Source: Acidobacteriota bacterium
GTDB taxonomy: Bacteria; Acidobacteriota; Thermoanaerobaculia; UBA5066; Gp7-AA6
Direction of reading: 5' to 3'
DNA length: 57,187 bases
Assembly (NCBI GenBank): GCA_027307335.1
Contig: DAHUXD010000065.1
Coordinates: forward strand, 1-57,187
Made by a program: the position numbers and the translations under genes. Shown piece after piece: positions 21,272 through 51,068 of the stretch (position 1 is its first letter; each line of letters opens with the position of its first letter). The notes beneath the pieces were generated by a model. It had not been told where the DNA came from. It worked only from the letters and a program-made list of their open reading frames with translations, and ran no database searches.

Positions 21272-21330
21272 GCGCTCCTCGAAAAAGGCGGGCGGATGAT
21301 CGCACGTTTTTCGCCGGGGAACGCGATGCG

Positions 21331-21364
21331 CCGCGCGGTTCCGTTCCGGAGGCTCCGCGCGGCG
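21331..21364 (-). terminator. Hairpin after the minus-strand collagen-like gene
   Basis: A perfect nine-base stem, GCCGCGCGG / CCGCGCGGC, with a 16-nt loop lies eight bp after the collagen-gene stop. There is no T tract, so it may act with Rho or protect the mRNA end. Confidence 0.4.
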
Positions 21365-21372
21365 CGAACGAA

Positions 21373-26346: not shown

Positions 26347-26361
26347 TCCGATGAAAAACGC

Positions 26362-26382
26362 CCGGGCCCGCGAGGGTCCCGG
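26362..26382 (+). terminator. Hairpin after the collagen-like gene
   Basis: CCGGGCCC / GGGTCCCGG with one bulge and a GCGA loop lies 15 bp after the stop. There is no T tract, so support is moderate. Confidence 0.35.
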
Positions 26383-28305: not shown

Positions 28306-28365
28306 AGGAGGTGAGCGACCGAAGATCACATCTGAGTTAAGGGCGCATCGAGTTCTCCCCTAATC

Positions 28366-28737: not shown

Positions 28738-28855
28738 GACCGAAAGGTTCGCCCGGCGACCCAGCGCCTGGATCGACACGCGGGGACTCACCCATCGCCC
28801 TCGCCTCTTCGTATCGCTCTGACGTGCAGGATTTTGGGGTCGAGAATTGAAAAGG

Positions 28856-30592: not shown

Positions 30593-30661
30593 GCTGCTGC
30601 GGCGATGGTACAGCGCGCTTTCAGCTCAGGGATGCCCCTGGCAGTGCAGATCGCAGTCGAG

Positions 30662-30768
30662 TGCACCGTGAGTGCACCGACGGACGGACTCCGAGCCGTC
30701 GTCCAAGCTAAGTGGTTGAAAACATGGTTGGGGCGGCCGGGATGGAACCGGCGACATCAGCTCCTAAG
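30662..30768. repeat. Decayed attachment site 1 (arm plus tRNA-Pro 3' half)
   Basis: TGCACCGTGAGTGCACCGA at 30662-30680 is followed 63 nt after its first base by a diverged copy of the tRNA-Pro 3' end (30725 to about 30768) with substitutions in the T-arm and anticodon region and one base lost. The arm shares 25 identical bases with that of site 3. It is the most decayed of the three sites. Confidence 0.65.
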
Positions 30769-30805
30769 GCCGACTGAGGAAACGCAGACCATATTGGACT
30801 GGCTC

Positions 30806-30965
30806 TAACCAGCATTCGCGTGCGACGACTTGACCTGTAGGAACCGAGCCTCTCGCCCGGCGATAGTGTCAAACGCGTTCTCTATGGCGCCAAGGTCCAG
30901 CACGGGAGATGGTTGCGCGAGGTTAAAGAACGTCCTACCGCCGGCCGGCCGATCCGGGCGAGCGT
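30806..30965 (-). pseudogene. C-terminal remnant of an unidentified gene
   Basis: A minus-strand frame of about 50 codons downstream of the kinase stop ends in ENAFDTIAGREARFLQVKSS plus HANAG and a stop at 30806. It reads like protein but has no start of its own. It may be the end of a gene cut by island insertion. Family not recognised. Confidence 0.25.
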
Positions 30966-30977
30966 GCTGCCCTCAAC

Positions 30978-33683
30978 TCAGGTGTCGAGAAAACCCGCGA
31001 GCGCCGGCCGGCCCTCGAGCGTCGTCCGATACCCGTACGCGACGAGCGCGATGACGACCGCGACGGCCAGGATCCCCGAGGACGCGTACCAGGCGGAAAC
31101 GTGTCGTGTGATGGGAAACAGAGAAAGGATCTGTACCGTGAAGAACCCCACTCCGTAGGCCAGCAAACCGAAACGGACGAGAAGGAAAACGATGCTTCCA
31201 CCGATGACGAACCAGAATACCGCCTCCTTCAGGGGCTCCTCGGAACCGCCGAAGCCGCTGAAGGAGAACAGGACCATGAAGGCGAACGCGGCCAGCCAGT
31301 CCTTCCGCAGGAGGGTGCGAAGAAGGAACAACAGGAAAAAGATCGCCATCGCGATGAAGAGAGAGTACGCGAATGCCCCGATGATATCGGCGGCGCCGAA
31401 CCGAATACCCCGGAGCGCGTCGAGCTGCACGTAGGGTCGAACCGGAATGCCGACGCGATTCGAAACGAAGCCCTGCGCGCGACGAAGCAGCGTCCAGAAA
31501 GTCCCCCACAAGACGCCGACCAGGACATCGCGGCCGACGACGCCGTCTCGGAACTGTCCCGTGAGCACTCGCGTCCAGGACACGAGCGCACCGGGCCAGC
31601 GGCGACGCACGAAGGGCTCGACAGCGAGGTAGAGAATGCCGGCGAAGGCCGCGGCGAAGAGCGCGAAACCCGCCATATCCACGAAGAGCCGGAACTCGTC
31701 GGAGTAGGCCACGTGGGTTCCCTCGAGGACCCACGACAGCAGGAAGGCGGCGAAAACGAAGAGGGCGAATCGGAACGCTCCTCGCCGGTCACCGCGGCCC
31801 AGACGCAGGTTGCGGCGAGCGACCAGAACGCTTCCGACCAGCACAGTCACGAAGAGGCTGAGAAGGACGAAGTTGCTGATGCCAAGGCCCCGGTCTGCGC
31901 CGGCCTGGCGCGCGGGCGTGGTCCATGGCCATACGATGCGGAACATGACGGGCGTGCCCCGATAAGCGGCGGCCTCGACGCGGATCGGAATTTTCGGAAG
32001 CTCCGGGAAGGCTCCGGTCCAGGCGGCCCGGGTGTCCGCGAAGGTCTCCGGTAGCCATGCGGGCCTGGCCGGCTTGAGATCGGTCGCGCCGAAGCCCGCC
32101 GCGGAAATGAGGGGTCCCCAATCCGGCGCCGGGTCAGGCCCTTCCGGCACGGTCTGCGGTGGCACGCCCTCGAACTCGAGCAGCCGTCCCTTCATGTCCA
32201 GGACGACGAGAACCATGCCCGCGACGTCGAGCGGCGGGACGTTTCGCGAAATTCGGTCGTCGAGAAATGGGTCGCCGGGAGACAGCTCGCGCGGGCTGGT
32301 GCGGTACCAGAACTCGATCGCCGGCGGGCGTCCCGCCTCGAGATCCTTCCAGCGCGTCCTCGAGCGGTCGTTCTTCCTCACGTGGTCGAAGTACTCCGTG
32401 TTCTGAACGAGGCCCCAGGCTCGGTCGAGCGGCCTCGCTGCATACCCCTGCCGGGCGGCGATCTCCTGCGCCTGGAAGGAGAGCGCCTCCGGGGACAGCT
32501 CGAGAGGCGTTCGTCCGACAAGACCAAACTGATCGGCGACCAGGATTACGAGAGCGAGACCGATGAAGGCGGCCGTCAGGCAGGCGAGCGCGACTCGCGG
32601 TGCCAGGCCGGTCGATCCTCCGGCGGCCGCGACCATCTCGGGCGAAGGCGTTTCGCCGGCCGCGAGCGCCGCGGCGAGCGGGTCGCCCCCGGGGAGTGAC
32701 GCGGAGACCTGCAACGCCGAACCCGGACGTCGGGCCGGATCCCTCTCCAGGCAACGCAGAATCGCGTGATCGATCTTGGGATCGAGATCCCGGGCGATCT
32801 GCGACGGCGGGGTCGCGCCCGCCTCCTTCTGACGCCGCATTTCCGCGAGCGTCGCCGCTTCGAAACCCTTCTTGCCCGTAAAGAGCTCGTAGAGCACCAG
32901 GCCCAGGGAGTACACGTCGCTCCGAACGGTCGCGGCCTTGCCGTCGAGCTGCTCCGGCGCCATGTAGGCGGGCGTGCCCGCGATCTCGCCCTCGCGGGCT
33001 CCTTCCTCGCCGAGGACCGCCAGGCCGAAATCAGTGATGCGTAGGCGTCCGCGGCCGTCGATCATCACGTTGGCCGGCTTCAGATCGCGATGAAGGACCT
33101 TCTTGTCGTGGGCGGCCGCTATTCCAGCGCACAGCTCCCGTGAGAGCTCCAACGCCTTGTCGTGAGGAAGTCGCCCAATCCGGCGTAATAGTGAGGCCAG
33201 ATCCTCGCCGTCGATGAACTCCATCGAAAGGAAGAGCAGTCCCTCGATTTCGCCAACGTCGTGGACGCGGCACACGTTTGGATGGGAAACCTGACGGGAA
33301 AGCCGAACTTCCGCCAGGAAACGTTCCCGTCGTCCGGGGTCGGCGGCGTGCGTGCGCGGCAGGAACTTCAGCGCCACAGGCTGGCCGAGCGTGAGATCGT
33401 CGGCCCTATACACCTCGCCCATGCCGCCCCGGCCGAGGAGGCCGATGATTCGGTAGCGCTCGACGAGCACGGTCCCCGGCGCAAACGCTCCGTCGTCGAT
33501 CGAATCGCCGGAGGCCAGCCGGCCGACGGGCACCGAGGACGGACTACGCCGCAGCGCAGCCTGGGCGACTGAGGGGGAAGCCAGGCCCGTCGGCGCCTGA
33601 GACACGGAGGAGACCTGCTGGCCGCACGCCGAACAGTAGAAGGCGTCGTCCGGGACGCTCGCGGAGCAGAAAGCGCAGATCAT
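30978..33683 (-). CDS. Zinc-ribbon Ser/Thr kinase with large polytopic membrane domain
   Basis: A 901-residue kinase. Residues 1-22 form a zinc ribbon (CAFC and CSAC pairs). The kinase domain (about 72-335) has GRGGMGEVYRA, ALKFLP, KVLHRDLKPANV, ITDFGLA and GTPAYMAPEQ. A membrane helix (about 362-385, VALACLTAAFIGLALVILVA) is followed by an extracytoplasmic region (about 390-600), then about eight further helices to the end. The last part (FSGFGGSEEPLKEAVFWFVIGG) has a Glu-Glu motif in a helix, reminiscent of but not clearly a CPBP protease. The ATG overlaps the stop of a 46-codon frame. It is the only intact large gene between attachment sites 1 and 2. Confidence 0.85.
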   Translation of the reverse strand: MICAFCSASVPDDAFYCSACGQQVSSVSQAPTGLASPSVAQAALRRSPSSVPVGRLASGDSIDDGAFAPGTVLVERYRIIGLLGRGGMGEVYRADDLTLGQPVALKFLPRTHAADPGRRERFLAEVRLSRQVSHPNVCRVHDVGEIEGLLFLSMEFIDGEDLASLLRRIGRLPHDKALELSRELCAGIAAAHDKKVLHRDLKPANVMIDGRGRLRITDFGLAVLGEEGAREGEIAGTPAYMAPEQLDGKAATVRSDVYSLGLVLYELFTGKKGFEAATLAEMRRQKEAGATPPSQIARDLDPKIDHAILRCLERDPARRPGSALQVSASLPGGDPLAAALAAGETPSPEMVAAAGGSTGLAPRVALACLTAAFIGLALVILVADQFGLVGRTPLELSPEALSFQAQEIAARQGYAARPLDRAWGLVQNTEYFDHVRKNDRSRTRWKDLEAGRPPAIEFWYRTSPRELSPGDPFLDDRISRNVPPLDVAGMVLVVLDMKGRLLEFEGVPPQTVPEGPDPAPDWGPLISAAGFGATDLKPARPAWLPETFADTRAAWTGAFPELPKIPIRVEAAAYRGTPVMFRIVWPWTTPARQAGADRGLGISNFVLLSLFVTVLVGSVLVARRNLRLGRGDRRGAFRFALFVFAAFLLSWVLEGTHVAYSDEFRLFVDMAGFALFAAAFAGILYLAVEPFVRRRWPGALVSWTRVLTGQFRDGVVGRDVLVGVLWGTFWTLLRRAQGFVSNRVGIPVRPYVQLDALRGIRFGAADIIGAFAYSLFIAMAIFFLLFLLRTLLRKDWLAAFAFMVLFSFSGFGGSEEPLKEAVFWFVIGGSIVFLLVRFGLLAYGVGFFTVQILSLFPITRHVSAWYASSGILAVAVVIALVAYGYRTTLEGRPALAGFLDT

Positions 33684-33820
33684 CGCCGTGGGGCCGCAAT
33701 CTTACGCTCAAGGATTTCGTCGGGCTTGGGACGGGTCCCGGCCGCGAGCGTCACGAGGCCGGTGGCCGGATCGCGCTTCACGACCACGACGTCGCAGGAA
33801 GGCACCTGTCTAGCGAGCAT
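33680..33820 (-). CDS. Small 46-codon frame coupled to the zinc-ribbon kinase
   Basis: From the ATG at 33820 to a TGA that overlaps the kinase ATG (ATGA). The peptide has a coding-like middle, CDVVVVKRDPATGLVTL, and a charged end, DEILERKIAAPRR. It could be a small regulatory partner, a leader that couples translation, or the tail of a lost gene. I do not recognise it. Confidence 0.35.
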   Translation of the reverse strand: MLARQVPSCDVVVVKRDPATGLVTLAAGTRPKPDEILERKIAAPRR

Positions 33821-33885
33821 CAGTGGTGGAAGGCGTCTGGACGATATCGGTCAGTCTGCCGGTGTCGGGAGGCTCCAGAATCAAG

Positions 33886-33990
33886 TGCACCGTGAGTGCA
33901 CCGACCGATGAGAGGTGACCGAGGCATTTCGCTAAGTCGCTGAGATGGTCGGGGCGGCCGGGATCGAACCGGCGACCATCTGCTCCCAAA
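33886..33990. repeat. Attachment site 2 (arm plus exact 45-bp tRNA-Pro 3' copy)
   Basis: The arm element TGCACCGTGAGTGCACCGA starts at 33886. From 33946 to 33990 the sequence is identical over 45 bp to the intact tRNA-Pro gene from its CCA end through the anticodon loop (50964-51008), then stops matching. This is the expected form of the distal att repeat of an island inserted in a tRNA gene. Confidence 0.85.
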
Positions 33991-34041
33991 CCTAAAACGG
34001 CGGCTCTTTCTGGGTACCAGCGTCGATGACTCGGGATCATT

Positions 34042-34176
34042 CTAGAGCATGGAAAACCAGCGACTAGCGTGTGCATGCAGCGGAACGTCTTGCTCCGCGA
34101 CAGCTGCGGGAGGAAGCGCTTCAGCCACCGCCCGGTACTCCTTGGGCGTCCTCGCTTGTCGCCTTCGGCTTAGCAT
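34042..34176 (-). pseudogene. Possible 44-codon minus-strand gene piece beside site 2
   Basis: A minus-strand frame reads RTPKEYRAVAEALPP and ends SRWFSML. It looks coding in composition but is very short and overlaps the degenerate attC-like hairpin at its start. It lies about 50 bp right of the att core, as does the remnant beside site 1. Family not recognised. Confidence 0.25.
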
Positions 34177-34234
34177 GCGGGGGCAGCGGACTCGCTCTTC
34201 GCCTTCGGCTTATCTGACCCGCTATGCGTTGGGT
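34173..34234 (+). repeat. Degenerate attC-like site upstream of the cassette
   Basis: GCAT-GCGGG (34173-34181) can pair with CCCGC-T-ATGC (34218-34227) with one bulged T, and GTTGGGT (34228-34234) fits the R' core site. No matching R'' is seen. The loop contains CGCCTTCGGCT, also found in the downstream attC loop and again at 34160. Confidence 0.5.
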
Positions 34235-34244
34235 GGATCACAGC

Positions 34245-34979
34245 ATGGACACGGGCGATAGCTTCAGCGCCGCGTATTCTGGGCTTGAAGTCGCAATGAA
34301 AGCCCTCGCCGAGGCAGACGGAGACGTCTATCTCCCGAACCCTGAGCCGCATGGTCCAGTCAACTACGTCCTTGTCTGCATGGAGCCCTCTCTCGGGGCG
34401 CATTCAGCGGAGTACGCTCGCGCGCAGATCGCGAGTGGCTGTAGGAACTTCCTAAATTCGCCTGAGGACTTCATTCTTCACCTAGCTGCCCAACGGTATC
34501 TCTGCCGGCCGGGCCAGCGTTACCATGTCACGGACATCTCCAAGGGCGCGATGCTCGTAAGCGTCGCACGGAAGGCGAGGGCGGAGCGATACGCAAGGTG
34601 GCATAGCCTACTTCTGGAGGAACTCGCTCTCGTCGCCTTGCCCACTGCCAAGATCGTCGCCGTGGGGTCTGAAGCCTTCAGGCATCTCACGCGTCACGGA
34701 TGTGAATGGCCGGTTACGCAGGTGCTTCACTACTCTGGCCAGGCAGCGCGTGCCCGCAGAGCCGCTGTGTCCGGGCTTGAGCTTCAATTCGACGAATTCG
34801 CAGCGTCCATAACGCACGATGACCTACTTGCGTCGGCTTTCGACGTCCTACAGGCCGCTCGCATCCCCGCCGCAATCTGCAACGCCACGTTGACCCGCTT
34901 GAGCCGCAGCTCCCTCACGGCGTCCCGTTTGCAGCTCCTATTCAGCTATAAAGTGGCTTTCGAATCGTTGTGCTCCTGA
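34245..34979 (+). CDS. Cassette-borne protein, possibly uracil-DNA-glycosylase-like
   Basis: A 244-residue soluble protein in an integron-type gene cassette. I start it at the ATG at 34245 because the ATG at 34224 lies within the R' core of the upstream site. Segments NYVLVCMEPSLGAHS, YHVTDISKGAML, LLLEELALVALPTAKIVAVGSEAFRHL and VTQVLHYSGQ follow the order of motifs in the uracil-DNA glycosylase superfamily (phosphate-loop strand, partner strand, Glu-Leu helix with ALG-like strand, and a His-Tyr-Ser end), but the catalytic motifs are not canonical. It could be a nucleic-acid repair or defence protein; the assignment is tentative. The stop is 29 bp before the attC. Confidence 0.45.
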   Translation: MDTGDSFSAAYSGLEVAMKALAEADGDVYLPNPEPHGPVNYVLVCMEPSLGAHSAEYARAQIASGCRNFLNSPEDFILHLAAQRYLCRPGQRYHVTDISKGAMLVSVARKARAERYARWHSLLLEELALVALPTAKIVAVGSEAFRHLTRHGCEWPVTQVLHYSGQAARARRAAVSGLELQFDEFAASITHDDLLASAFDVLQAARIPAAICNATLTRLSRSSLTASRLQLLFSYKVAFESLCS

Positions 34980-35008
34980 GCCAGGGAACACTCGGCCGGG
35001 TGGGAGCC

Positions 35009-35084
35009 GCCCAACATGCGCGTGCAGCAGACTCGCTCATCGCCTTCGGCTCTTTGCGAGCCGCTGACGCGTCACCCGTTCGGC
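35009..35084 (+). repeat. Integron attC recombination site
   Basis: R'' GCCCAAC (35009-35015) and R' GTTCGGC (35078-35084) pair at six of seven bases. Inside, GCGT/ACGC, CAGC/GCTG, G/C and CTCGC/GCGAG form a long stem. G35024 and A35031 are extrahelical on the same strand and the loop has 19 nt. The order R''-L''-L'-R', the 76-bp length and two extrahelical bases are the hallmarks of attC sites used by integron integrases. Confidence 0.75.
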
Positions 35085-35155
35085 GCCTGGAGTCAGCTGC
35101 CCTCACCGCGGTTTACGTTCCCCGCAGGTCTGGGACTTTTCATGGGACCTCAGCC

Positions 35156-38100
35156 CTAAGCCGCTATTCCTTGGCGGCGTCGGCGCGAAATACTTCCGAA
35201 CAAGGCCACGACCGCCGACCCGAGTGCCGCGGCCAGAACGCTGGCTGAAAGAATCTCAACTATCCAGTGCCTACGTGGGAGGAAGGCATCTGGAAGAGCG
35301 AAGACGTCTAGGGTCCAGTTGCGGTCGCCAGGGAGAGGGACGATGAACGACTGCTCGAACCCCTCGCGAGCCGGGCCGGCGTTCGCGCCGCCCCGTTCCG
35401 CCAGCGGCGGCGCCTTCGGCTCGCTCGGGTCGCGCAGCCGAAGCCCGATACCGGAGGCGTCGACCTGCGACGCCGCCTTGTCGACGAGCGGCGCCACCCG
35501 GAGGATCGCCACCACGAAACCGAGCAGCGCCTTCGGCCGCGCCTCCTCGGACCCCGGATCGCCGCCGCGAAAGACCGGGGCGTAGGCCGAGACGACCGGC
35601 GGCCCCTTGCGGCCCGTGCTCTCGACCAGCTCGAAAGGCGGCGAGAAGGTGATCACGCCCTTGTCCCGGGCCTTGGAAGCGGTCGCCCATCGCGGTGGGC
35701 TTGAGGCGATGTCGAACCCGAGAGCGCGCGCGCTTGGAGGTTCCATGTAGAGGATCGGAACATAGAGGTCGCGATGCCCGACGGCGGTGGCCTTGCCGTC
35801 CACGACCTCCCAGAAGCCGAGATCCATCACGTGGTCAGCCTTCGCCTCCGCCTCGCTCTTCGCTCGGTCGCTCCCGCGCACGAGCGGCAGCCATTCGAAG
35901 GCGTAGACCTCGGGGTTGCGCGTGAGCATCGGAACCGCGAGCAGGCGAAACTGGACTCGCGTCATTACGTGATCCGACGCATCCATGAAGCTCTGCAGGG
36001 TGTAGAGGTTCTCGAGCGCTAGCGTCAGCCGTTCCGAGACCTGAGCCTGGAGGCGTTGCGCCTTCTGCGAGAAGGCGAGTTGCGCAGCGGCCTCGGCGCT
36101 CTTGTCGAAATAGATTCCCCAGCCGAACAGAAGAGCGGCAGCGAGCCCAGCCGCGGCAACCCACCTCTGGCGCCGGTTTCGATTCGCAAGGGTCGTCATT
36201 GCCCTCGCGAAATCCTCCTCAACTGCCGAGAGCCCACCCTCGTAGGTTTGCCGCCATGCCTGGTACTCGAGATACGAAGCTCCCGTCCAAAGAACGTCGT
36301 CGGATTGCCCTCGCTTCAGCCACAAGTGCGCCGCTTGTCGAAGCTCGTCTCGAAGTTGCGCCCCGACTGCACTCTGCGTCTGCCACCGAACAAGCCGCGG
36401 CCATGCCGTCAAGAGCGACTCGTGCAGGATCTCCACGTGTCGCCCGCCGGACGCGCCACCGCCTTCATCGGCCTCGTAGGATGTCAAGAGCCTCGCGTCT
36501 ACGAGTTGCCTTACCACGGTCTCAGCGGCAACACGGTCTGGAAAAGCCGACAGCAACTCGTCGGTGGTCAGCACGGCACGCGTGCCCTGTGCCGTGGTTA
36601 GGTTTCGAAAGATCGAGCGCACAGTCCCTTCATGCTCGAGACCTATACGATCGAGAGTGGCCTCCGCGTGCAGGGCGAGGGCCCCTTCTACGCCGCCAAC
36701 CTTGAGGTACGTCTCTCGGGTGAGGACTTTCCGCTCCTGGTCTCGGCGATTCCATAGTTTAGAAACAGCGAATGCCAACAGCGGTAGAGCTCCGCGCCCT
36801 CCCTCGACGGCACTAAGAATGTCCTCCACGAGTGCATCGTCCTCGAAGCTATAGCCGAGCTTGCGAGCCGGTTCGACCACGGCGCGTCTGAGGTCCTCCC
36901 GCGTCAGCGTACCCAGGGGTGTCAGTTCGCTGAAGACTTCCGCTAGAGCCGGATGCTCGTGACATCGCATCAAGAAGTCATCGCGCAGGGACAGAAGGAG
37001 GTGAACGTCGGCCTCTTTCGCTAGTCGCCCAAGGAGCGCGGCGAATCGAGCCTGGGTCTCCGTTGAGTTCAGCGTGAAGAGCTCCTCGAATTGATCCAGA
37101 ACGATGAGCGCTTGCTCGTGGTGCTTGCGCCAACGGGCGAGCAACTCGAATGCGGTCGCAGGATCGTCAAAACCCGCAAGCTTCCGCAATGCCTCGGAGT
37201 CTCCGGCAAGTTCGGGGCCCAGAATCTGGCCGAGAGCCCTCAGCGGCGCTGGCCCTGGCGTACTGACGAGCGTTGCCCACCCCTTAGGTCTGGACGCCAC
37301 AACGCCCGCACGGACGAATGAGGTCTTGCCGGCCCCCGAAGCCCCAATCACGGCCAGCAGTCGGCGACGTCGGATCTTGTCCCAAAGCATTGCGACTTCG
37401 TGCTCGCGGCCGAAGAAATTTCCCGCGTTCTCTTCGGTGAAGGAAGAGAGGCCGGGGTACGGATTCTTTTCTTCCACTTCTCGGAGCGTGGCAGTCTCGC
37501 CTCGCCCCTGAAGCACCGCTTCGAGTTCCATTGCCAGGTCATGGGCTGACTGAAAGCGCTTCTCAGGCTCCTTTTCTAGACAGCGGTCAAGAATGGTCTC
37601 CGTCCTGGGAGAGGCAGGGAGCTTCTCGGGTGCATCCTGCAGGATCGCCGTCAGAGTCGCGGGGATTGTCTCCCGTCGGAACGGATGTTTCGCTGCCATG
37701 AGCTCGTAGAGCACCACTCCAAGCGAGAAGATGTCCGAACGGTGGTCCACGTCCTCCGCACGTAGCTGCTCAGGGGACATGTAGGCCAGCGTGCCGAGCA
37801 ATACCCCGGGCTGCGTGAGATTCGTTGCCGTCGAAGCTTTGCTCTCGACCTCGGTGCCCGTCCCGAGCTTCGCGAGACCAAAGTCGAGAATCTTTATTCG
37901 ACCTTCGGCCGTGAGGAAGAGATTCTCTGGCTTTAGGTCCCGATGAACGATGCTCTTGCGATGAGCAGCGGCCAGGCCCTGGGCCACCTGTAGGCCCCAC
38001 CCCAACACCTGTTGAGTCGAGGGAACTCTGCGCACTATGACATCCCGTAACGTCTCGCCCTCGAGAAGCTCCATAACGACATAAGGCATTCCCTCGTAGC

Positions 38101-38338
38101 TTCCAACGTCGTAAATCGACATGATGTGAGGATGATTCAGGGCGCCGGCAGCTCTGGCCTCTTTCTCGAACCTGCTCAGGCGAGCAGGGTCCCGAGAGAC
38201 AGCATCTGGCAAGACTTTGATGGCAACATCGCGCCCCAATCGGGGATCGCGCGCCCGGTAGACCTCCCCCATCCCGCCCTTGCCAACTGGCGACAGAATC
38301 TCGTAGGGACCTAGACGAGTCCCAGCTGGGAGTGTCAT
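35156..38338 (-). CDS. Ser/Thr kinase fused to STAND NTPase and CHASE-type sensor
   Basis: A 1,060-residue signalling protein. The kinase (about 8-275) has GKGGMGEVYRA, AIKVLP, SIVHRDLKPENL, ILDFGLA and GTLAYMSPEQ. A STAND-type NTPase (nSTAND1-like, about 310-700) follows, opening with NPYPGLSSFTEENAGNFFGRE, with Walker A IGASGAGKTS (about 345) and Walker B LIVLDQFEELF (about 430). After a membrane helix (about 735-753) comes an extracytoplasmic CHASE-like domain (about 790-1005, containing VYAFEWLPLV), then a second helix (about 1025-1045). CHASE domains bind small ligands, usually at the N-terminus of histidine kinases or cyclases; here it is C-terminal. STAND modules act as nucleotide-driven switches. 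Confidence 0.85.
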   Translation of the reverse strand: MTLPAGTRLGPYEILSPVGKGGMGEVYRARDPRLGRDVAIKVLPDAVSRDPARLSRFEKEARAAGALNHPHIMSIYDVGSYEGMPYVVMELLEGETLRDVIVRRVPSTQQVLGWGLQVAQGLAAAHRKSIVHRDLKPENLFLTAEGRIKILDFGLAKLGTGTEVESKASTATNLTQPGVLLGTLAYMSPEQLRAEDVDHRSDIFSLGVVLYELMAAKHPFRRETIPATLTAILQDAPEKLPASPRTETILDRCLEKEPEKRFQSAHDLAMELEAVLQGRGETATLREVEEKNPYPGLSSFTEENAGNFFGREHEVAMLWDKIRRRRLLAVIGASGAGKTSFVRAGVVASRPKGWATLVSTPGPAPLRALGQILGPELAGDSEALRKLAGFDDPATAFELLARWRKHHEQALIVLDQFEELFTLNSTETQARFAALLGRLAKEADVHLLLSLRDDFLMRCHEHPALAEVFSELTPLGTLTREDLRRAVVEPARKLGYSFEDDALVEDILSAVEGGRGALPLLAFAVSKLWNRRDQERKVLTRETYLKVGGVEGALALHAEATLDRIGLEHEGTVRSIFRNLTTAQGTRAVLTTDELLSAFPDRVAAETVVRQLVDARLLTSYEADEGGGASGGRHVEILHESLLTAWPRLVRWQTQSAVGAQLRDELRQAAHLWLKRGQSDDVLWTGASYLEYQAWRQTYEGGLSAVEEDFARAMTTLANRNRRQRWVAAAGLAAALLFGWGIYFDKSAEAAAQLAFSQKAQRLQAQVSERLTLALENLYTLQSFMDASDHVMTRVQFRLLAVPMLTRNPEVYAFEWLPLVRGSDRAKSEAEAKADHVMDLGFWEVVDGKATAVGHRDLYVPILYMEPPSARALGFDIASSPPRWATASKARDKGVITFSPPFELVESTGRKGPPVVSAYAPVFRGGDPGSEEARPKALLGFVVAILRVAPLVDKAASQVDASGIGLRLRDPSEPKAPPLAERGGANAGPAREGFEQSFIVPLPGDRNWTLDVFALPDAFLPRRHWIVEILSASVLAAALGSAVVALFGSISRRRRQGIAA

Positions 38339-38723
38339 CGGACGACTGCTGTGTTTAGTTTATGCCGCTGGCGCTCGAAAGGCCCGGACGTGGCCGGGCG
38401 CTAATGGCCATTACTGAACGCAAGAGTCCTCGTGCCACGCGCCGGACGCTCCAGACCTCGGAAGCCTGACGTGGCCCCCGGATCAAGGTGCCAGCGCTAT
38501 GCGGTCAGTGTCGCTGCCGCACAGTTTCGGCGGCCGTCGGTCGATGTTGGCGGTTTCGAACAGCGAATCCACACCAAGTGCACCGGCCTGGCGACTCGGG
38601 ACGCTTCCGCGACTAACCAGCTCAGTCGATGGCGCCTTGGGGTTCGACTAGCCGGGTGACCATTGGTCTTGGTGACAGCTGGGCCGGCACGGGTCCAAAC
38701 TCCGCTCGCGGCCGCTTCTGCAT
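38339..38723. other. 385-bp gap without a recognisable gene
   Basis: Lower GC bias than the host genes. I see no convincing coding frame, RNA or terminator. A palindromic patch, GGCCCGGACGTGGCCGGGC, lies near 38380. A single TGCACCGG near 38577 resembles half of the att arm but is not followed by tRNA sequence. Confidence 0.5.
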
Positions 38724-38831
38724 CTACTTCGCCATCTTCGTCGCCGCCGCGATCGCCACGCGAACCCCGGGATCGAGCGCCAGCGCCGCCCCGAACACCT
38801 CTTGAACCCGAGCCCAACGCTCCGGCGTCAC
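38724..38831 (-). pseudogene. N-terminal remnant of a second kinase gene
   Basis: The 35 codons from GTG 38831 to a TAG at 38724 read TPERWARVQEVFGAALALDP, matching the leader of the adjacent kinase (MTPERWQRAQEIFGEALL) and of many acidobacterial kinases with this N-terminus. Nothing of the kinase domain remains downstream. It is probably left over from a duplicated or replaced kinase gene. Confidence 0.6.
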
Positions 38832-38900
38832 TGTGTCGACCCCAGTACCTGCCGCTGCAGCCCTTTTCGTTCTCTCGATGACGGGAGGCCGCCGACCTGA

Positions 38901-41747: not shown

Positions 41748-42337
41748 CGGACCGGTCCAACGAGCTCGCGATGCAACCACGCTCTTGCCACAGCCCACTT
41801 CCGCTGAACAGTCGCCGTGGAGCTTTCGAGTGCCGTCGCCACTTCCTCATTGGTCAGGCCGGCAAAGAACCTGAGCTCGACGATACGAGCCTGTTCCAGA
41901 TCGAGGGCTGCAAGTTTGACGAGTGCGTCGTTAACAGCGATCACGTCGACTTCGCGAGGCATGGTCATTGCGATGGTCTCGATGTTCGAGATCGCTGCCG
42001 GCTCGCCACGTTTCTTGGCCGCGCGCCGGCGAGCGTGATCTGCAAGGACCTGGCGCATCGCCCGGCCAGCGACGAGGAAAAAATGGGCCCGATTCGCCCA
42101 AGGTGTATCGCGAGCTCCCTGGAGCTTGAGGTAAGCCTCGTTGACGATTGCAGACGGCTGAAGCGTGTGGTTCGCGCGTTCTCGCCTCATGTGTCGCTCG
42201 GCTAGCCGGTGGAGCGTGCTGTACACCAATGGGACGAGCTTCTCCGCGGCAGAGGAGTCACCCGCTTGCCACGCACGCAGGAGCGCAGTGACTTCCCCTT
42301 GTGTCGGAGGTGAGCTAGCCCTCGTGTCCTTCGACAT
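41744..42337 (-). CDS. ECF sigma factor, Sig-70_X6 type
   Basis: A 197-residue sigma factor of the kinase-associated ECF group (TIGR02999/Pfam Sigma70_ECF). Region 2 contains LVYSTLHRLAERHMRRERANHTLQPSAIVNEAYLKL-like sequence (about 35-75) and AHFFLVAGRAMRQVLADHARRR. Region 4 is ALDLEQARIVELRFFAGLTNEEVATAL with its helix-turn-helix (about 145-185). The group lacks a classical anti-sigma factor and is usually next to a Ser/Thr kinase, as here by ATGA overlap. Its targets are unknown; the giant Ig protein and other island genes are candidates. Confidence 0.9.
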   Translation of the reverse strand: MSKDTRASSPPTQGEVTALLRAWQAGDSSAAEKLVPLVYSTLHRLAERHMRRERANHTLQPSAIVNEAYLKLQGARDTPWANRAHFFLVAGRAMRQVLADHARRRAAKKRGEPAAISNIETIAMTMPREVDVIAVNDALVKLAALDLEQARIVELRFFAGLTNEEVATALESSTATVQRKWAVARAWLHRELVGPVR

Positions 42338-42530
42338 GATCGGGATCTGAGCCGAAGTTTATGCTTCGGATGTTGGTTTGGTTTCGCTACTCTAAACACT
42401 GGCTAAACCTCAGTGAACCGCTCGCAAAAAGGGGCCCGCCCGGCGAACGGAGAAAGGCAAGAGCCTCAGCCGGACGAGCCGGACGGAGAGTCGAGTCGCA
42501 GCGGCTCTCCGCTTGGAACGGGTTTAGGAC
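42338..42530. other. 193-bp gap upstream of the ECF gene
   Basis: It should hold the sigma/kinase promoter, read on the minus strand. TTTAG-type A/T-rich patches near 42390-42410 are the only candidates. No -35/-10 pair is convincing. Confidence 0.3.
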
Positions 42531-42713
42531 CTACTTTCGACGACCAGCGGGCGGCGGCGGCGGAAGCGGAGTGGGAACGCGGCAGGGGTGATGATTGACG
42601 CTGCCCCTGACGTGACTACAGTTAGGGCTCGGCGGCAGCGTGCTGGCCGAAAGCTCCGCAACGATGACCAGAAGAGGAACCGCCGCGAGGAGCGTTCCGA
42701 TCAACTTCTTCAT
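42531..42713 (-). CDS. Small secreted Pro-rich peptide
   Basis: A 60-residue product: MKKLIGTLLAAVPLLVIVAELSAS is a clear signal peptide, followed by a short polar part with two Cys (PNCSH, HHPCRV) and a proline run near the end. AGGAGG lies seven nt before the ATG, one of the best ribosome-binding sites in the island, so it is probably translated. The 35-residue mature peptide could be disulfide-linked. It has no recognisable family and sits between two sigma-like genes on the same strand. Confidence 0.6.
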   Translation of the reverse strand: MKKLIGTLLAAVPLLVIVAELSASTLPPSPNCSHVRGSVNHHPCRVPTPLPPPPPAGRRK

Positions 42714-42948
42714 GGTTCGTCCTCCTTTGCCCTAGAAAGCGCAAAAGAGGACCGGCGTGCATCAAGGGCACTCGAATCGACAAGGGAGATCGAAGGTGAT
42801 CGGCCTCAGTGCACCAGGAGTGCGCTGGCTCGAGGGAGGAAGCGGATCAGAGTTCGAAGGTGCCTAGAGACCAGGCGCTGCGGGTTCTCGTTGAGGCGTG
42901 ACTACCGGTCTCATTAACCGATTCGACGGGCTCGAATCTGACGCTGGC
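42714..42948. other. 235-bp gap
   Basis: It probably carries the promoter of the small secreted peptide gene. I see no other feature in it. Confidence 0.4.
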
Positions 42949-43470
42949 TTAGGCCAACCCTCGCCGACCTAACCTACTTAGCCGTTTCGCTCTCGCCCTG
43001 ATTTGACCTAAGTGGTGTTGCTCACTCCCGTGCCGAATGCCGATCTGGCGGGCGGCCTCAGATAAGCAAAGCCCGTTCGCCATTAGCGCGAGGAGCCGAC
43101 GTTCTCGCAGAGGCGAGCGTGCGGCCAACCGCTCCAGGAAGAGTCTCGCGTCCATCCCGCTCTGGAAAGCTGACGCTTCGCGATCGCGGCTGCGAATCGA
43201 CACCTCCGTGAGTCGGGCTTCGCGCCACCGATGACGGAGGTATCGTCGCAGGAAGTTCTGAAGGACGGCCGCTAACCAGGGAGCAACAAGGGCCGTCTCG
43301 AGATTTCCACTAGACACGAGCCAGGTGAGGACGTCTTGGGCTAGATCCTCCGCTTCGGAGGCTGTTAGACCTGCGATCACGGCTGCTGCCGTCAGGCGCC
43401 CAAGGATGGTCAGTAGCGCATCATCAGCTGGGATTCGTCGGTCAAAATGGCTGACTTCCGAACTCATCAT
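42949..43470 (-). CDS. ECF-like sigma factor
   Basis: A 173-residue protein with the ECF layout. The region 2 equivalent is TASEAEDLAQDVLTWLVSS followed by APWLAAVLQNFLRRYLRHRWREA. The region 4 equivalent is SPLRERRLLALMANGLCLSEAARQIGI and a helix-turn-helix ending RAKRL. Region 2 is divergent, so promoter specificity is probably unusual. GGAGGC precedes two adjacent ATGs (43470 and 43467); the second has the better spacing. It is transcribed away from the giant Ig gene and has no adjacent anti-sigma gene. Confidence 0.7.
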   Translation of the reverse strand: MMSSEVSHFDRRIPADDALLTILGRLTAAAVIAGLTASEAEDLAQDVLTWLVSSGNLETALVAPWLAAVLQNFLRRYLRHRWREARLTEVSIRSRDREASAFQSGMDARLFLERLAARSPLRERRLLALMANGLCLSEAARQIGIRHGSEQHHLGQIRARAKRLSRLGRRGLA

Positions 43471-43818
43471 GCCTCCGCTAACCTAAGGATTGTCGCGAGA
43501 GGTGCCTGGGAAGGTGTCTGCGGCAATTCCTAGCTAGCGAATCTTTTTCCCATCTTTTCGCTCTCGTCAAGCGACTTCTATCTAGACAGCGCTAACTTGC
43601 TAAGGCCCGAGTGAGCACACGCCAGCCGACCGGCGAAAAACGAGCACGCCTGCCGAAGGTAGCGATTGCCTTGGCGAGGGCCATCCTCTACAAGATCACA
43701 CTCTCGCCGCTCGACGAACGAGCGGCGCGGGATGTGAAGACCTCGAGATCCGTAGCCCGGCGACCGGTTCGACGACCCAGGCCAATTCGTTCTGTCTCTT
43801 GTTGATCCACCGGAGGGG
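43471..43818. promoter_or_regulatory. 348-bp divergent region between sigma-like gene and giant Ig gene
   Basis: A/T-richer than its surroundings (for example near 43535-43590), fitting two divergent promoters. A GGAGGG lies eight to ten nt before the giant-gene start. No operator repeat is obvious. Confidence 0.35.
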
Positions 43819-46800
43819 TTGAAGATGAAAAAGACCTTCACTCGCCACTCGTCATCGACCGAAAAGCAGCACTTGCCCCTTCTGGTCGTTCGGTTGGCAG
43901 CCCTAGTCGTCTTCGCGTGCTCCTCGCATCCCCTCTTCTCCCAAACGCTCCAATCCGTTTCCCTGAGTCCAGCCGCGCTTCCTATTGGCAATCAATCGAC
44001 GGGAACGGTGACGTTGTCTTCGGCGGCACCCGCAGGCGGCGCGACCGTGACCCTCTCGACCTCCGATTCGAAAGCAACGCACTTGCCCGCCAACGTGGTC
44101 GTGCCCGCGCAGGGGATCACAGCGACATTCGTCATCACGACCAGCTCGTTGCCGCCCGGCACTTCGACCGAAACCGTAACCATCAGCGCGATTTACGCTG
44201 GCGTCACCAAGACCGCAACGTTAACGCTATTCGTCGGCCTCTCGTTCTCGCCAGGGTCCGTGGCTTACGGCCAACCGACGACGGGAACAGTCACTCTTGC
44301 CTCACCGGTCCCAACCGGCCAAACGGTCTCGGTATCCTTAAGCAGTTCAAACCAGGCAGTCTTTCCCGTTCCGTCATCCCTAGTTCTCACGGCCGGTCAA
44401 TCGAGCAAGACGTTCGTAGTTACACCGACCATAGTTACTGCCAATACGTCCATCACCGTAACGGCGACATACACGGGCTTCACGGCAACGGCTGCCGTTA
44501 CTGTCTGGCCTACCAGCCTGGCATCCGTCACACTTTCAGCTGCCAGCGTGATCGGTGGAACGCCAGTCTCCCTAAAGATTCTCCTAACCAATCCCGCGCC
44601 TCCTGCCGGCCAACTCGTCTTGATCACAGGCCTTTCAAGGGGGTGTCCGTCGAGCCTCACGATTCCCGCGGGCTCAGATATTGGAACGTTAACTTGTAGT
44701 ACTGCCCCCGTGTCGACGGACACGATTCTCAACATCAGCATAAGCGCGAACGGTGGCCAACTTCTCGCTCTCGTTACAACTGCTGGCCCGTCGATACTCT
44801 CGCTTACGACGGCACAGCCCGAAGCTCTGAGCGGTCAGTCCTTAAGTGCCACGATAACGCTAAACGCCCCTGCGCCGGAGGGTGGCGCCACAGTTAACCT
44901 CAGTTCACTAAATTCGTCCATCGCGCACTTCAGGTCTGCAACCGCCTTCATTCCGGCGGGCCTGACGACTGGGGTTGCACAAGTTGATACCGGCCCGACT
45001 ACTGGAGCCGCTACGCTGACCGCGGGGTATGGAAGGTATGCGGACCTCAACGTTACCGTCACGGCAGTCATTGTCCCTCTATCAATCCGAACTTCACTTT
45101 CTCCGATAACGCACGGCTCTATCGGTTACTACACGATCACCCTTGATGCGGTAGATTGCAACGGCGGCGCCGTGAGCCTGACCAGTAGTCACCCCGAAAT
45201 CTTTCCTGTTCCGTCAAGCGTTCCGTGGCCGTGTTCGGACCATTTCGACATCACACTCCCCACGATCACGCCTGCTCCTGGTTCGACGGTTGTGACTCTT
45301 TCCGCGACTCGGAACGGCTCGACGGCCTCCCAGAACGTCATCGTCGCTGGGGCGCCGATTGCGTCAGCGATTTCCGCCGGCGTCCAGACCGCCCCGCCCG
45401 GAACACTTCACGCTACTCTTGCTCTGATCGGTACGTCGTATCCTAGCGGGACGCAAATCCCCGTTTGGAGCTCCAACCCGGCGCTCGCTAGCGTCCCAGC
45501 ATCAATAACAACCAACGGCTCCGCGACGTATGACGTGCTGGTTACGCTTTCTACTCCAACCGTGCCTAGTCTCATCACGCTGTCGGCCGCCTATGGCGGT
45601 ATGACAGTCCGATCTGACCTTATCGTAACGCCTACTGTGTCGCTCAACGGCCTAGCCCTGGAGACCACTGAGTTAACAGGCGCTGCCTTTTCTATAACCG
45701 GTGATGTCTCACTAAATGGCCCCGCACCTAGCGGGGGCATCATCGTCACGTTAGCCAACTCCCAGGCAGCAATAATCACAATGCCGACGTCGATAACGGT
45801 CGCGCAGGGCCTTCAGATCGCTAGCTTCACCATCACTACCCAGGCGGTGTCCACGGATACCTCCGCCACCATCACGGCCATTGCCGCCGGGATCAGCCTC
45901 AGCGCTCCTCTCACGGTCCTTGCTCCCACTGTTAGTGCCGTGACTCTAGCTCCCGACGTCGTAACGGCCGGCGGCTCGGTTGTCGCAACCGCTGTTCTCT
46001 CGGGCCCCGCTCCCACAGCCGGCCTGAGTATTCCGATCTCGGCTTCCTCGACGGAGGTCCAGGGCACGACGTTCCCTACGCTCACCAACAGCAGCCTACC
46101 GATCGCTGCCGGGAGTTCTAGTGGGTCGTTCACGGTCCAGACCATACCGCAGACCATTCAGGGCTGCTGGAACTTCGTTGACGTATCCGCGTGTCGCCTG
46201 CTCGCGTGCGGGACTGGAAGACTATGGGTGTACAGCAGCGCGCTTCTAGGTCTGTCCCTCAGCCCTGCCACCGTGCAGGGCGGTCAACCATCCACCGCGA
46301 TCATCACGCTGAACGGAACTCCAGATGTGCCGGCGACAGTTCAGCTAACGAGCACGCCGGCCGGGATCGTGACAATGCCGACGAGTGTCGTCATAGCGGG
46401 AGTGACCGGGCAAGTGGCCATCAACACGAGCGTTGTGTCGGCAGACACGGCAGTGACGATAACAGCAACCTACGGGGCATCAAGTGGTGGCGGTTCCGTC
46501 CAGCTTCAGCAGGTCCTCACCGTTACAAAGCTTGCGACACTCCAGTCGCTGACACTTACCCCAGCCATGATAATAGGTGGAAACACCGCCACGGGAACAG
46601 TCTTGCTAGACGGCCCTGCACCATCCGGCGGGGCGATCGTGTCCCTGACCAAGACCGGCTCTTCGGCCGTCGCTATACCGAGTTCGGTCACTGTTGCAGC
46701 CTCGCAACAGTCCAAATCGTTCAACGTCACCACGACAGCGGTAAGTTCAGCCGCTACCGCTAATATCACTGCGGCGTACGGAGGTATCAGCAGGCCGACC

Positions 46801-49800
46801 ACAATCACGGTCCTTCCTACCTCCGCGGCGACCCTAGCGGCAGTATCCGTGAATCCGTCCACGGTTCCGGGGGGAACGAATTCCACCGGAACAGTCACCC
46901 TCACTGGCCCGGCCCCTAGTGGCGGCGCGACAGTCTCACTATCAAGTTCGAACCCCAGTGTCGCGTCCGTTCCGGCTACCGCAACGATTTCTACTGGCCT
47001 CTCGGGCCCATTTCCCGTGACCACTTACTCGGTCTCAGCTCAGACCGCGGTTACCATTACCGCAGTCTACGGGTCGACGACCGCCAGGACGACAACGATC
47101 ACCGTTACACCTCCTTCTGCGGCGGCGGTCACGTCGGTCACCTTGAGCCCGCAATCTGTTGCGGGCGGCGAAACGTCGACGGGGACGGTTAGCCTTTCGG
47201 CGGCGGCTCCCTCCGGAGGCTTGGTGGTGGCCCTCTCAAGCTCCAACTCGGCTGTCGCGATTCCAGACAACACAACTGTCACAGTGCCGCAGGGTTACAC
47301 GGCTGCAACATTTTCGATCTCGACATTTGCGGCGACGAGCAGCTCGGTCGTCACTATCACTGCCGTGGGAGGAGGCAGCAGCCGGAGCGCGTCGCTCACC
47401 GTTAACGCCGCGACATTTAGCGGCGTTGCCTTTGCCGTACCGAGTACGGTCGGCGGGAGCTACGTAGCGCTTACTGCCTCCCTCAGCGGGATAACGCCCT
47501 CGGGCGTCACAATCGCGCTATCGTCAAGCAACTCAGCCCTACCGGTGCCGGCATCGATCAGCGTCGGCGGCGGTAGATCGAAGAGCACTGCCGTGATCGC
47601 TACGACCCAGGTCGCGACCGACACGGTGATCACTGTGACCGCGACACTAGGCGCAATCGTTCGGACTGCCCAAATTGCGCTGACGGTGGCGCCCGAGCTT
47701 CTGAGCGCCGGCACGACCACTCCCGCCCTGCCCGCCGGGCAAGTTGGTGAAGGCTTTGTCACACTCAACGGTCCAGCTCCGTCCGCGGGTATGGTCGTAG
47801 CCCTCACGAGCAGCGATCCAACCGCGGTTATCGTGCCAGCGAACGTGACAATTCCCCAAGATTCGGACTCGATCGGCTTTGACATTACGATTCCGGCTCA
47901 GCCCCTGGATAAGACTGTGACCATTACGGCAACGGCTGCCGGGAAGACCGCGACCTTTCAGCAGGACGCTCTAAACGTGGGCATCAGCAGCGTTACCGCT
48001 ACGCCGGCCTCCATACCTGCAGGTACTTCGTCGACCGGCCAAGTGACGCTGTCCTCCAGCGCACGACTGCCCGTAGAGGTGTTTCTTACGAGCGCTAATC
48101 CCGACCTAGTTCAGGTTCCAGGGAGCGTCGTGATCGCCAATAGTGCCACCGGTACATTTCCCATCACGACCTCGGGGGTAGGAAGCAACACTAGCGTCAG
48201 CATTTCCGCGACGTTCCAGGACCCGAGCGAGCTACCGGTTCTAGCTAAATCTGAAGCACTCGCGACCGGAACAGTCACGGTTACGACCTCATCGCCACCC
48301 CAGCTGGCGAGCTTGCAGTTCCCGGCGGGAGTCGGTGTCTCCGCCACACAGTACACCGTAACCGGTTACGTCAAGCTCACAAGCCAAGTGACGACACCGG
48401 TCACGGTCGCCATAACGTCCCTAGACCCACTAATAGCCACCGCGCCGCCGACGGTCACTATAACCTCAGGTTATGTCGGCACGTTCCCTGTAACGATGAC
48501 GCCGATGGTCGGCGGTACCGCGCGCTTCACGGCGACCTACGGCACCGTGTCATTGACACGATCTGTCGGTGTGGCTCCGCCGTCAACGTTCTCGTATTAC
48601 GTGACACCTACAGGTTACCCTGGCAACCTGCAGGCGATGGGCTGTGACACTGCGACCCGGATGTTAGCCAATGGCCTCACGGAAGGCGCGGTGATCTTGG
48701 ACTTCGGCGCGGCGACGCGCATTCTTCCAGACATTGGTGGCACTCGCGTCTACGGTGCGACCCTTCACAGTAGCTCGGCAAATTGGAAGTCGACGTATAC
48801 CCTCGCTCAGGATGTCTACACTCAGTACTATCTTGGCTTCATAGCTTGTGAGTCGCCCAGCGATGTCGGTGTGACGCTCATACTCGCCACCAACACGACC
48901 GGAAAGCACGAGAACTACACCGAGCATGCCGCCGCGTGGTCGGGCTTTGTCGACGCCTTGAACGACGGCTACGGCTCGGGGCTCGTCGTCGGCGGCAATG
49001 ACATGGAGCCGGATGTAACGAAAGGCTGGGCGACTCCGTCACTCGCCCGCCAGTGGATCGACAGCTGGATCGCACAGCCATTTATCGGTATTTGGAATCC
49101 AAACGAGTGCGTTTATACGGGCGCCGCGGTAGCCGACTCTGCCTCGCCGTGGAAGAAAGACGATTACTACTATTGTGCGCAGGGCGGCCTCAACGTGTTC
49201 GGCAGCCAATTCCCGATGGGAGCGCCGATGCCGCAAATTTACAACACGCGAGGAAAACAAGCTTCCATTTGGCACGACATCTCGGCGTACGCAGCCACTG
49301 CCTACAACGATCCGATTCTGTTCGGGGGCGCCTTAACACAGCAACAGGCGTGTATTGACTTGAATGATCCATGTACTGGTAGGAACAATCCTCCCTCTCA
49401 GGGCTGGTATCAGTTATTTAGCGACATCGCCGCTGACCCAGCAACGGCTGCTGGGACGGAGTTTATGAACTGGTCCACCGACATAGCATGGTTTCCGAAC
49501 GCCGGCACGATAGCCAAGGAGGGCGAACTTCGAGAGGTACCGTCACTAGAGGACGCAACGTCAGAACTGCGCGCGAAGTACGAGGCCGGGCGCGCGCGGC
49601 TGGCTGAACACCTTGCGCGCGTAGTCCCACAGGGCAAGCCCGCTGACCCGGCTGGTTCTGATGGCGAGGAGAGCGGAATCATGTCCAACCAGGACATCTA
49701 CGGACCGATCGCTCGCAAGATTAACCTTCAGAACTGGTACCAGGGGAGGGTTGACGGTGCCATCGTGGCTGCATATGCCGGGTCGGAAAGGCACCTTCGG

Positions 49801-49989
49801 ACTAGCCCGTTGCTCTTGGTGCAAGCTCTTTCGCCGGACGGTATGGGCGGAGGGCCGCTTCAGGCATACAGGCCTCCCAATGCCACGGGTATGCTTCGCA
49901 TTGTCAGCAGCGCTGGCGACCTCCTAGTGCTCGCCACCGATGACGGTAGTCAGTATGCGTTCGACCTGCGGAGTCGCCAATGGCAATAG
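43819..49989 (+). CDS. Giant secreted Ig-repeat protein with glycosidase-like C-terminus
   Basis: A 2,056-residue exported protein. The signal peptide lies in residues 1-42 (hydrophobic [18 protein letters not shown], cut near LFSQ). Residues about 43-1585 consist of some sixteen Ig-like repeats of 85-100 residues with the pattern sVtLsP..v.GG..stGTVtLs.pAPsgGa.V.LsSsn, then vpasvtV..G..s..F.vtT..V...t.vtItAtYgG. The last about 465 residues are distinct: a domain with [43 protein letters not shown] and [15 protein letters not shown], which may be a TIM-barrel, glycosidase-like fold; catalytic residues are not certain. No LPXTG, PEP-CTERM or SLH anchor is seen. GC and codon bias are clearly lower than in host genes, suggesting transfer. 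Confidence 0.75.
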
Positions 49990-50015
49990 CCGGCGAGACG
50001 TTCGTGGGCACCGGT

Positions 50016-50021
50016 TATAAT
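50016..50021 (+). promoter_or_regulatory. Consensus TATAAT -10 box
   Basis: TATAAT 26 bp after the giant-gene stop and 33 bp before the ATG at 50054. No matching -35 is seen, but it is the only perfect -10 hexamer I found in an intergenic region here. Confidence 0.45.
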
Positions 50022-50053
50022 ATTGCCTCACCGAAGATTGCCTACTGCCCCGG

Positions 50054-50665
50054 ATGGACACGCGCATGGGCGTAATAGCGCACAAAACAGCTGTTCGAGT
50101 TGTCGCCGGTCTGGTGGTCGGCCTCGCGACAACCAGGTGTCTTGCGGTAGCACCGACTCCGCCGAGTCCAAGGGAGACCACCTACCGGAGCGATGCGGTC
50201 GGCGTCACGCTGCGAGTCCCGGCCAACATGGCCGCGCTTAGCGGTGAGCAGGCGCGCATCGGTTTTGCCTGGCCGCTACCTGACATGAGACTAGATCTCC
50301 ATGAACCCGACCTTCGAAAGGTCGGGATTACCAGGGCGTCTGTGGTGGTCTACGCATCGATCGACGGTTATTGCCCGCCGCCGCAGCCGGATGAAGGAGG
50401 GGTTCCGGTGACCTTGGGAGGCCGTGCCGCATATCACGTCACATGGACAGACGCGGCAGGAGCCTTTGGGATCCAGGGCGATGGGTTCAGCACGCTCTAT
50501 CGAGGCAAGTGCTTCTTCATAGCGGCCGTGATCGAGACGCTACGAGTGGACTACGACAGTCTACAAGAGCAGCGGCATGCGGATGCACGGTACAAGGAGA
50601 TTGCCGAGTATCTACAGCGGGTTCTTCGGACGGTCAGGTTCCTTGATAGGCCGGATAGCAATTAG
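50054..50665 (+). CDS. Secreted hypothetical protein
   Basis: A 203-residue exported protein. The signal peptide is TAVRVVAGLVVGLATTRCLA; the second ATG at 50066 gives a more typical n-region. The mature part starts with a Pro-rich segment, then YRSDAVGVTLRVPANMAAL, a beta-rich centre (VPVTLGGRAAYHVTWTD) and a C-terminal helix (KEIAEYLQRVLRTVRF). Family not recognised; the layout resembles small secreted proteins that describe or bind a surface component. It is the last island gene before the tRNA-proximal att site. Confidence 0.6.
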   Translation: MDTRMGVIAHKTAVRVVAGLVVGLATTRCLAVAPTPPSPRETTYRSDAVGVTLRVPANMAALSGEQARIGFAWPLPDMRLDLHEPDLRKVGITRASVVVYASIDGYCPPPQPDEGGVPVTLGGRAAYHVTWTDAAGAFGIQGDGFSTLYRGKCFFIAAVIETLRVDYDSLQEQRHADARYKEIAEYLQRVLRTVRFLDRPDSN

Positions 50666-50899
50666 GAATTGCGTACCTCCCAGCCGGACCCTCGGTAAGT
50701 CCATCTCCGGCGGTCGCGCACAGCCAAGGCGGCCGCGCTAACCTTCTTCCTCCAGGCCTGGCGGGGTCTGGCCGGTTTACAGCCTGATTCCGCCTGCACA
50801 CCTGACGCGAAGCACTCGGGAAGGCGCTAGGTCTAGGGTCACCCCGTTCCTATCCAAAGGGTCTAAGCCACAATCGAGCGAATAGGAGCCGAAGACGAC
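50666..50899. other. 234-bp gap at the island's right end
   Basis: No gene, integrase remnant or RNA is recognisable here, although an integrase would be expected next to the tRNA in a complete island. Confidence 0.5.
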
Positions 50900-51008
50900 T
50901 GCACCGTGAGTGCACCGACGGACGAAAGCCAACCGAGCGGTTTAGCTAACTCATTGAAAGGATTGGTCGGGGCGGCCGGGATCGAACCGGCGACCATCTG
51001 CTCCCAAA
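50900..51008. repeat. Attachment site 3 (arm plus tRNA-Pro 3' half, intact)
   Basis: The arm element TGCACCGTGAGTGCACCGA begins at 50900, 64 nt before the tRNA CCA end. The 45-bp core (50964-51008) is the 3' half of the intact tRNA-Pro gene. TGCACCG occurs twice, 11 bp apart, in each arm, as might suit two integrase or accessory-protein contacts on one helix face. Confidence 0.8.
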
Positions 51009-51038
51009 GCAGATACGCTACCGCTGCGCTACGCCCCG
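50964..51038 (-). tRNA. tRNA-Pro (anticodon UGG)
   Basis: On the minus strand the acceptor stem CGGGGCG pairs with CGCCCCG and is followed by A and an encoded CCA. The anticodon stem AUCUGC/GCAGAU encloses the loop UUUGGGA, so the anticodon is UGG. The T-arm has GUUCGAUCC. All arms fold. The downstream (3') side borders the island and the 5' side borders host-like DNA, so the insertion left the tRNA functional. Confidence 0.95.
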
Positions 51039-51068
51039 GGTCTTCCAATTATCCCACCGCTGCGCGCG

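Follow-up and report, generated by a model that had tools for sequence, protein, structure and literature searches.

Introduction

A tycheposon is a tRNA-targeted element with a tyrosine recombinase and characteristic modules. At the ssrA gene of Dehalococcoides, multiple tandem islands occur with direct repeats of the 3' end of the RNA gene, and 15 islands without an integration module were suggested to be CIMEs (PMC3146451). Accretion and CIMEs have been reviewed together with ICEs and IMEs (PMC5704250). The locus described here lies in the window (the whole stretch of DNA that was analysed, 57,187 nucleotides) and resembles the ssrA islands in its tandem stack downstream of one RNA gene, its 3'-end repeats and its integrase-less members. 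The Dehalococcoides islands target a tmRNA, insert in the T-loop with a 20-bp repeat, use the serine recombinase DsiB and in many cases keep an integrase, whereas here the target is a tRNA-Pro, the repeat is 45 bp from the anticodon loop, the arm pattern resembles the tyrosine type and none of the elements found contains an integrase. As in CIMEs (PMC5704250), there are no integration or transfer genes between the att sites and the elements stand in tandem at one target; by contrast, a resident ICE or IME that could be their partner, with arms that match, was not found. The locus adds a new lineage, the Acidobacteriota, to a mode of genome growth that is already known, and stands near the Dehalococcoides ssrA islands.

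Results

tRNA-Pro sites and the elements between them

The sole tRNA found in the window by ARAGORN and Rfam is tRNA-Pro(TGG), and BLAST of this tRNA on the whole genome returned the two displaced copies of its 3' half that the earlier note had placed at 33946-33990 (exact, 45 bp) and at about 30725 (decayed). The sites, the elements bounded by them and the repeat beside each site (the arm) are as follows.

50964..51038, minus strand: intact tRNA-Pro(TGG), the attachment target (ARAGORN; Rfam RF00005, 67.6 bits)
33946..33990, minus strand: site S2, exact 45-bp copy of the tRNA-Pro 3' half (100%, tRNA bases 33-77), far end of E1 and near end of E2
30725..30773, minus strand: site S1, decayed copy of the tRNA-Pro 3' half (86%, tRNA bases 28-77), far end of E2 and near end of an older element
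33991..50963, no strand: E1, 17 kb, 61.4% GC, no recombinase, includes an integron cassette
30774..33945, no strand: E2, 3.2 kb, one gene for a 901-aa protein kinase (30978-33683, minus strand; Pfam PF00069)
21273..30661, no strand: element 3, probable older accessory DNA with collagen-like genes and a 578-aa protein
50900..50918, minus strand: arm repeat of S3, exact, 46 nt past CCA, tandem repeat 9/11
33886..33904, minus strand: arm repeat of S2, exact, ~41 nt past CCA
30662..30680, minus strand: arm repeat of S1, exact, ~45 nt past CCA

E1 and E2 are each bounded by direct repeats of the tRNA-Pro 3' end beside the intact tRNA, whose own 3' half is the contribution of the proximal element E1. 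The decay order, which the earlier note saw as fitting successive insertions, depends on a single 86% copy and cannot by itself fix the sequence of insertions. The stack had been taken to begin at 30.66 kb; its oldest element reaches further left, possibly to ~21.3 kb, and has no recognisable far end.

In composition and cargo the islands are unlike the backbone. The left flank (up to 21.27 kb) has a GC content of 69.6%, the right flank (from 51.07 kb) 68.8% and E2 66.2%. The tetranucleotide correlation between the two flanks is 0.79, and with the left flank it is 0.32 for E1, 0.46 for E2 (which is short for such a profile) and 0.26 for 21.3-30.66 kb (a value biased by the collagen-like repeats). 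E1 encodes a kinase-nSTAND1-CHASE protein, a kinase-TPR protein, an ECF sigma factor, a sigma-like protein, a 2056-aa repeat protein that matches no Pfam family and a 203-aa protein; the cargo consists mostly of signalling proteins. A role of the kinases in defence is not claimed; the PADLOC matches (PD-T4-6) span mainly the kinase domain. Among 20 related genomes none has a relative of the 251-aa protein of E1, and the 578-aa protein of element 3 (28.9-30.6 kb) is present in one of the 20, with two paralogs in its own genome and no homolog found in G001 or G002, two members of the same family. Relatives have not conserved the cargo that was tested; conservation of the 31-51 kb genes in place, without tRNA-linked variation, was what the earlier note had named as an argument against islands.

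An integron cassette in E1

The proximal island contains an integron gene cassette that the earlier note had missed.

34189..35088, plus strand: integron gene cassette, ORF 34224-34979 between two attC sites
~34175-34232: left attC, decayed, hairpin z -0.84
35006-35088: right attC, well formed (GCCCAAC...GTTCGGC), bottom-strand hairpin z -3.66

The motif GACTCGCTCTTCGCCTTCGGCT, present at 34189 and 35030, recurs on contigs C11 and C48, with 16 same-strand copies in the first 12 kb of C48, and C11 encodes an integron integrase (IntI TIGR02249, 442 bits). The genome has a chromosomal integron, with IntI on C11 (L072) and many attC sites on C11 and C48 (L112). Because the attC repeat is common to this array, and with array-like attC sites, a bottom-strand hairpin at the right site and an integron integrase in the genome, ORF 34224-34979 is read as a stray integron cassette in E1, ~200 bp from S2 and far from the array. 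Its protein has no relative in PDB, plasmids or PHROGs, and a single-sequence structure model was unusable (pLDDT 34).

The arm repeat and the left-end module

In tRNA sense the arm contains TCGGTGCACTCACGGTGCA; this tandem repeat of 11 bp starts 41-46 nt past CCA at all three tRNA-Pro sites, and TGCACCGTGAGTGCACCGA is exact at 30662, 33886 and 50900; exact matching bore out the coordinates and the distance of 60-64 nt before the CCA end that had been given for it. With up to two mismatches the arm occurs in three places in the 4.37-Mb genome, all beside tRNA-Pro 3' copies, and the reversed pattern, searched as a control, gave 0 matches in the genome. Chance is excluded, since a 19-mer is found three times in the genome, each time equally far from a tRNA-Pro 3' copy. 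A common dispersed repeat unrelated to tRNA genes, which the earlier note had seen as fatal to its reading, was rejected on searches of the genome, the phylum and 85k genomes: the arm is absent from 395 other Acidobacteriota genomes sampled, bar one match with three mismatches, as well as from the viral contigs searched, and the 85k genomes gave nothing beyond G001 and two isolated matches. The latter (in Micromonospora and Chloroflexi) are without an adjoining tRNA-Pro and were taken as chance; no tRNA lies close to the matches that G029, G031 and G040 gave at 1-2 mismatches.

The alignment of the three sites suggested in the earlier note was run with the G001 site added. All four left ends have in common, in order, the tRNA 3' half, TCA, A[C/G]TTAGC and a 20-bp GTCGGTGCACTCACGGTGCA block, and the spacers between these parts have diverged across the four sites and two genera; such a module fits related elements constrained at integrase contacts better than one duplicated block. 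In the window E1 and E2 have tRNA repeats at both ends and the arm at their left ends only; it was not found at their right ends. That every site has an arm holds as claimed, but the window shows left-end arms alone, whereas in G001 the right end has one too.

The tRNA-Pro locus in related genomes

G001 (QHVV01000111.1) is an Acidobacteria gp7 MAG from the same family as the window genome and a different genus. Its tRNA-Pro has the arm at +46. Beyond this lie ~3.6 kb of other cargo, with genes for a histidine kinase and for a response-regulator/pyridine-nucleotide reductase, and then come a second arm, a ~150-nt segment and another tRNA 3' copy. The ~150-nt segment also stands behind the first arm (two blocks, 85% and 92% identical), and the arm marks both element ends. 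The same tRNA thus has different cargo beside it in G001, and related attachment ends recur at successive elements. In L009, 12333-12510, the first arm and the 150-nt segment lie directly after the tRNA, and their last letters are TTTGGGAG, with which the tRNA core begins; this arm with its segment looks like the remnant of a near-empty element of ~260 bp. Only one other genome, G001, shows the pattern, which counts against the explanation preferred below. A third family member, G002, has a contig that ends inside tRNA-Pro, which is at most suggestive of a repeat there.

Recombinases

The absence of a recombinase from about 20 kb, asserted in the earlier note, was confirmed by Pfam on the main island ORFs (30.6-51 kb) and by a six-frame search for PF00589, which found none on the contig. 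A search for remnants with six integrases gave nothing convincing in the window, so that neither the six-frame nor the homology search found a hidden or decayed integrase there, and Pfam found no transfer genes in the main ORFs of E1 and E2. Neither element was found by these scans to encode the integrase and relaxase of an ICE or IME; both are, as CIMEs are, without integrase and transfer genes.

The genome has six tyrosine recombinases, two of them Xer-like by score; of the four non-Xer enzymes, C11 encodes the integron integrase, C38 one in a prophage at tRNA-Pro(GGG), C57 one that adjoins tRNA-Gly and C26 the fourth. The CGGTGCACTCA arm is absent at all four non-Xer loci, and the check proposed earlier, for the arm next to tyrosine recombinase genes, yielded no cognate integrase in the searches run. 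The prophage-like region on C38 (L074, 6633-11683) comprises an integrase and a tape-measure-like protein. It resembles the islands in its tRNA-Pro target and in a perfect 12-bp tandem direct repeat (12/12) at +44 past CCA, the same place as the island arms; it differs in having its own integrase and a tape-measure-like phage gene and in the sequence of the repeat. In G008, from the same order, an integrase with an Arm-DNA-bind_3 domain adjoins a tRNA-Pro 3' copy; this element has the tRNA-Pro(TGG) target and the displaced 3' copy of the islands, and unlike them an arm-binding tyrosine integrase beside that copy and other repeats. The different tandem repeat, ACTGACAAAACTGACAAAAG, is present in several copies (L047, 6970-7140, and the end of L048).

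On account of the prophage repeat at +44 and the arm-binding integrase beside a tRNA-Pro 3' copy in G008, the arm is most likely an arm-type binding site of a tyrosine integrase; its function is argued by analogy because a cognate integrase for this arm was found nowhere. Counting against this reading, tandem repeats behind tRNA genes are no rarity in themselves: 6 of 51 control tRNA loci, a set without G001, have one downstream whose score equals or exceeds that of the weakest site in the window.

The lack of an integrase could also be original. The elements would then be non-autonomous satellites that never had one and relied from the start on the integrase of a helper acting in trans, with the arm module as the sole requirement. 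E1, E2 and the G001 elements, in two genera, are all without integrase, E2 (~3.2 kb) and the G001 element (~3.6 kb) are very small with one or two cargo genes, and the left-end module is kept while the remainder differs. Against this, no helper element with this arm was found in the genome itself, in 60 relatives, in 396 genomes of the phylum, in viral contigs or in 85k genomes, and integrase loss by decay yields the same picture and has precedent (PMC3146451, PMC5704250), which leaves satellites an unlikely account, though the best placed of the alternatives.

Apparent inversion of the tRNA and its islands

Comparison with the tRNA-Pro neighbourhood of six related genomes revealed a reversed block that the earlier note had missed.

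21273..51057, no strand: inverted block with the tRNA and the islands

By synteny, the window genes at 2-21,272 match 38.6-48.15 kb of G001 and 10.3-17.1 kb of G002, and in both genomes tRNA-Pro follows the matching genes as the next conserved feature and shares its strand with the first gene. In the window this first gene is RNase PH (2-778); G005, G007, G008 and G013 too have its homolog a short way upstream of tRNA-Pro and equally oriented. The tRNA-Pro of the window stands 30 kb further along and on the opposite strand. Flipping ~21.27-51.057 kb gives back the order esterase-like gene, tRNA-Pro, islands, and because reversal restores the gene order, the two backbone-like flanks are taken as the two sides of an accessory block flipped with its tRNA. 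The motif GTGGGATAATT, just before the tRNA, also occurs in G001, and therefore the breakpoint lies beyond it. From gene order, tRNA-Pro and the island stack were apparently inverted as a unit, and the position at 51.04 kb, which had been taken as the right edge of the islands, is the tRNA 5' side after the rearrangement and not the ancestral island edge. Divergent collagen-like repeat genes (21373-22647 and 23002-26346) adjoin the inversion breakpoint. The one downstream gene of G001 tried for locating the ancestral far flank has no homolog in the window genome (G000), and G001 and G002 have the homologs of the right-flank genes in other places, which did not reveal the second junction.

The reversed order might be an assembly error, the true order being that of G001 and G002; the draft genome is in 65 contigs and neither junction was seen in any other genome. 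No inverted repeats that could mislead an assembler were found at the two breakpoints, and the SDR gene ends normally, close beside the tRNA promoter, both of which make such an error rather improbable.

Discussion

The locus is probably the product of tandem accretion of related, CIME-like elements without integrase at tRNA-Pro(TGG), followed by inversion of the block. At least two insertions took place at this one tRNA gene, and probably three; the tRNA repeats and common arms at successive sites support the successive insertions by related elements proposed in the earlier note. Related integrative elements would have entered the 3' half of tRNA-Pro(TGG) in succession, each supplying its own tRNA 3' half, so that the tRNA stays whole; the displaced 3' half would form the direct repeat that now marks the far end of the element. 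The crossover may lie in or beside the anticodon loop, since the tRNA repeats begin there. As the elements are without integrase and transfer genes, they may now be fixed, or movable only with an integrase from outside, and the tRNA and stack would later have flipped as a block.

A wider version of the satellite account is distinctly doubtful: a family of small satellites in gp7-type Acidobacteriota that never had an integrase, with only a conserved tRNA-Pro attachment module in common and a helper in trans, would amount to a tRNA-anchored cassette system. Its members would each bring one gene or operon, for example for kinases or two-component pairs, and line up in arrays that grow. Least probable is the duplication of one segment that comprised the tRNA 3' half together with spacer and arm, without separate insertions and with unrelated DNA filling the gaps later. 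It would give the same ordered parts at all three sites, but the spacers have diverged where the tRNA half and arm are identical (S2) or close, G001 has an arrangement of its own in which other cargo lies between two arms, and the copies begin at the tRNA anticodon loop, as expected of att cores.

Tandem accretion at a tRNA gene, the reading preferred here, is thereby documented in a little-studied phylum, with an attachment module conserved in two genera. The case also shows a tRNA and its stack apparently inverted together and an integron cassette outside its array. The module is a bait for the missing integrase, and also for integrase-less islands that are overlooked by gene-based island finders.
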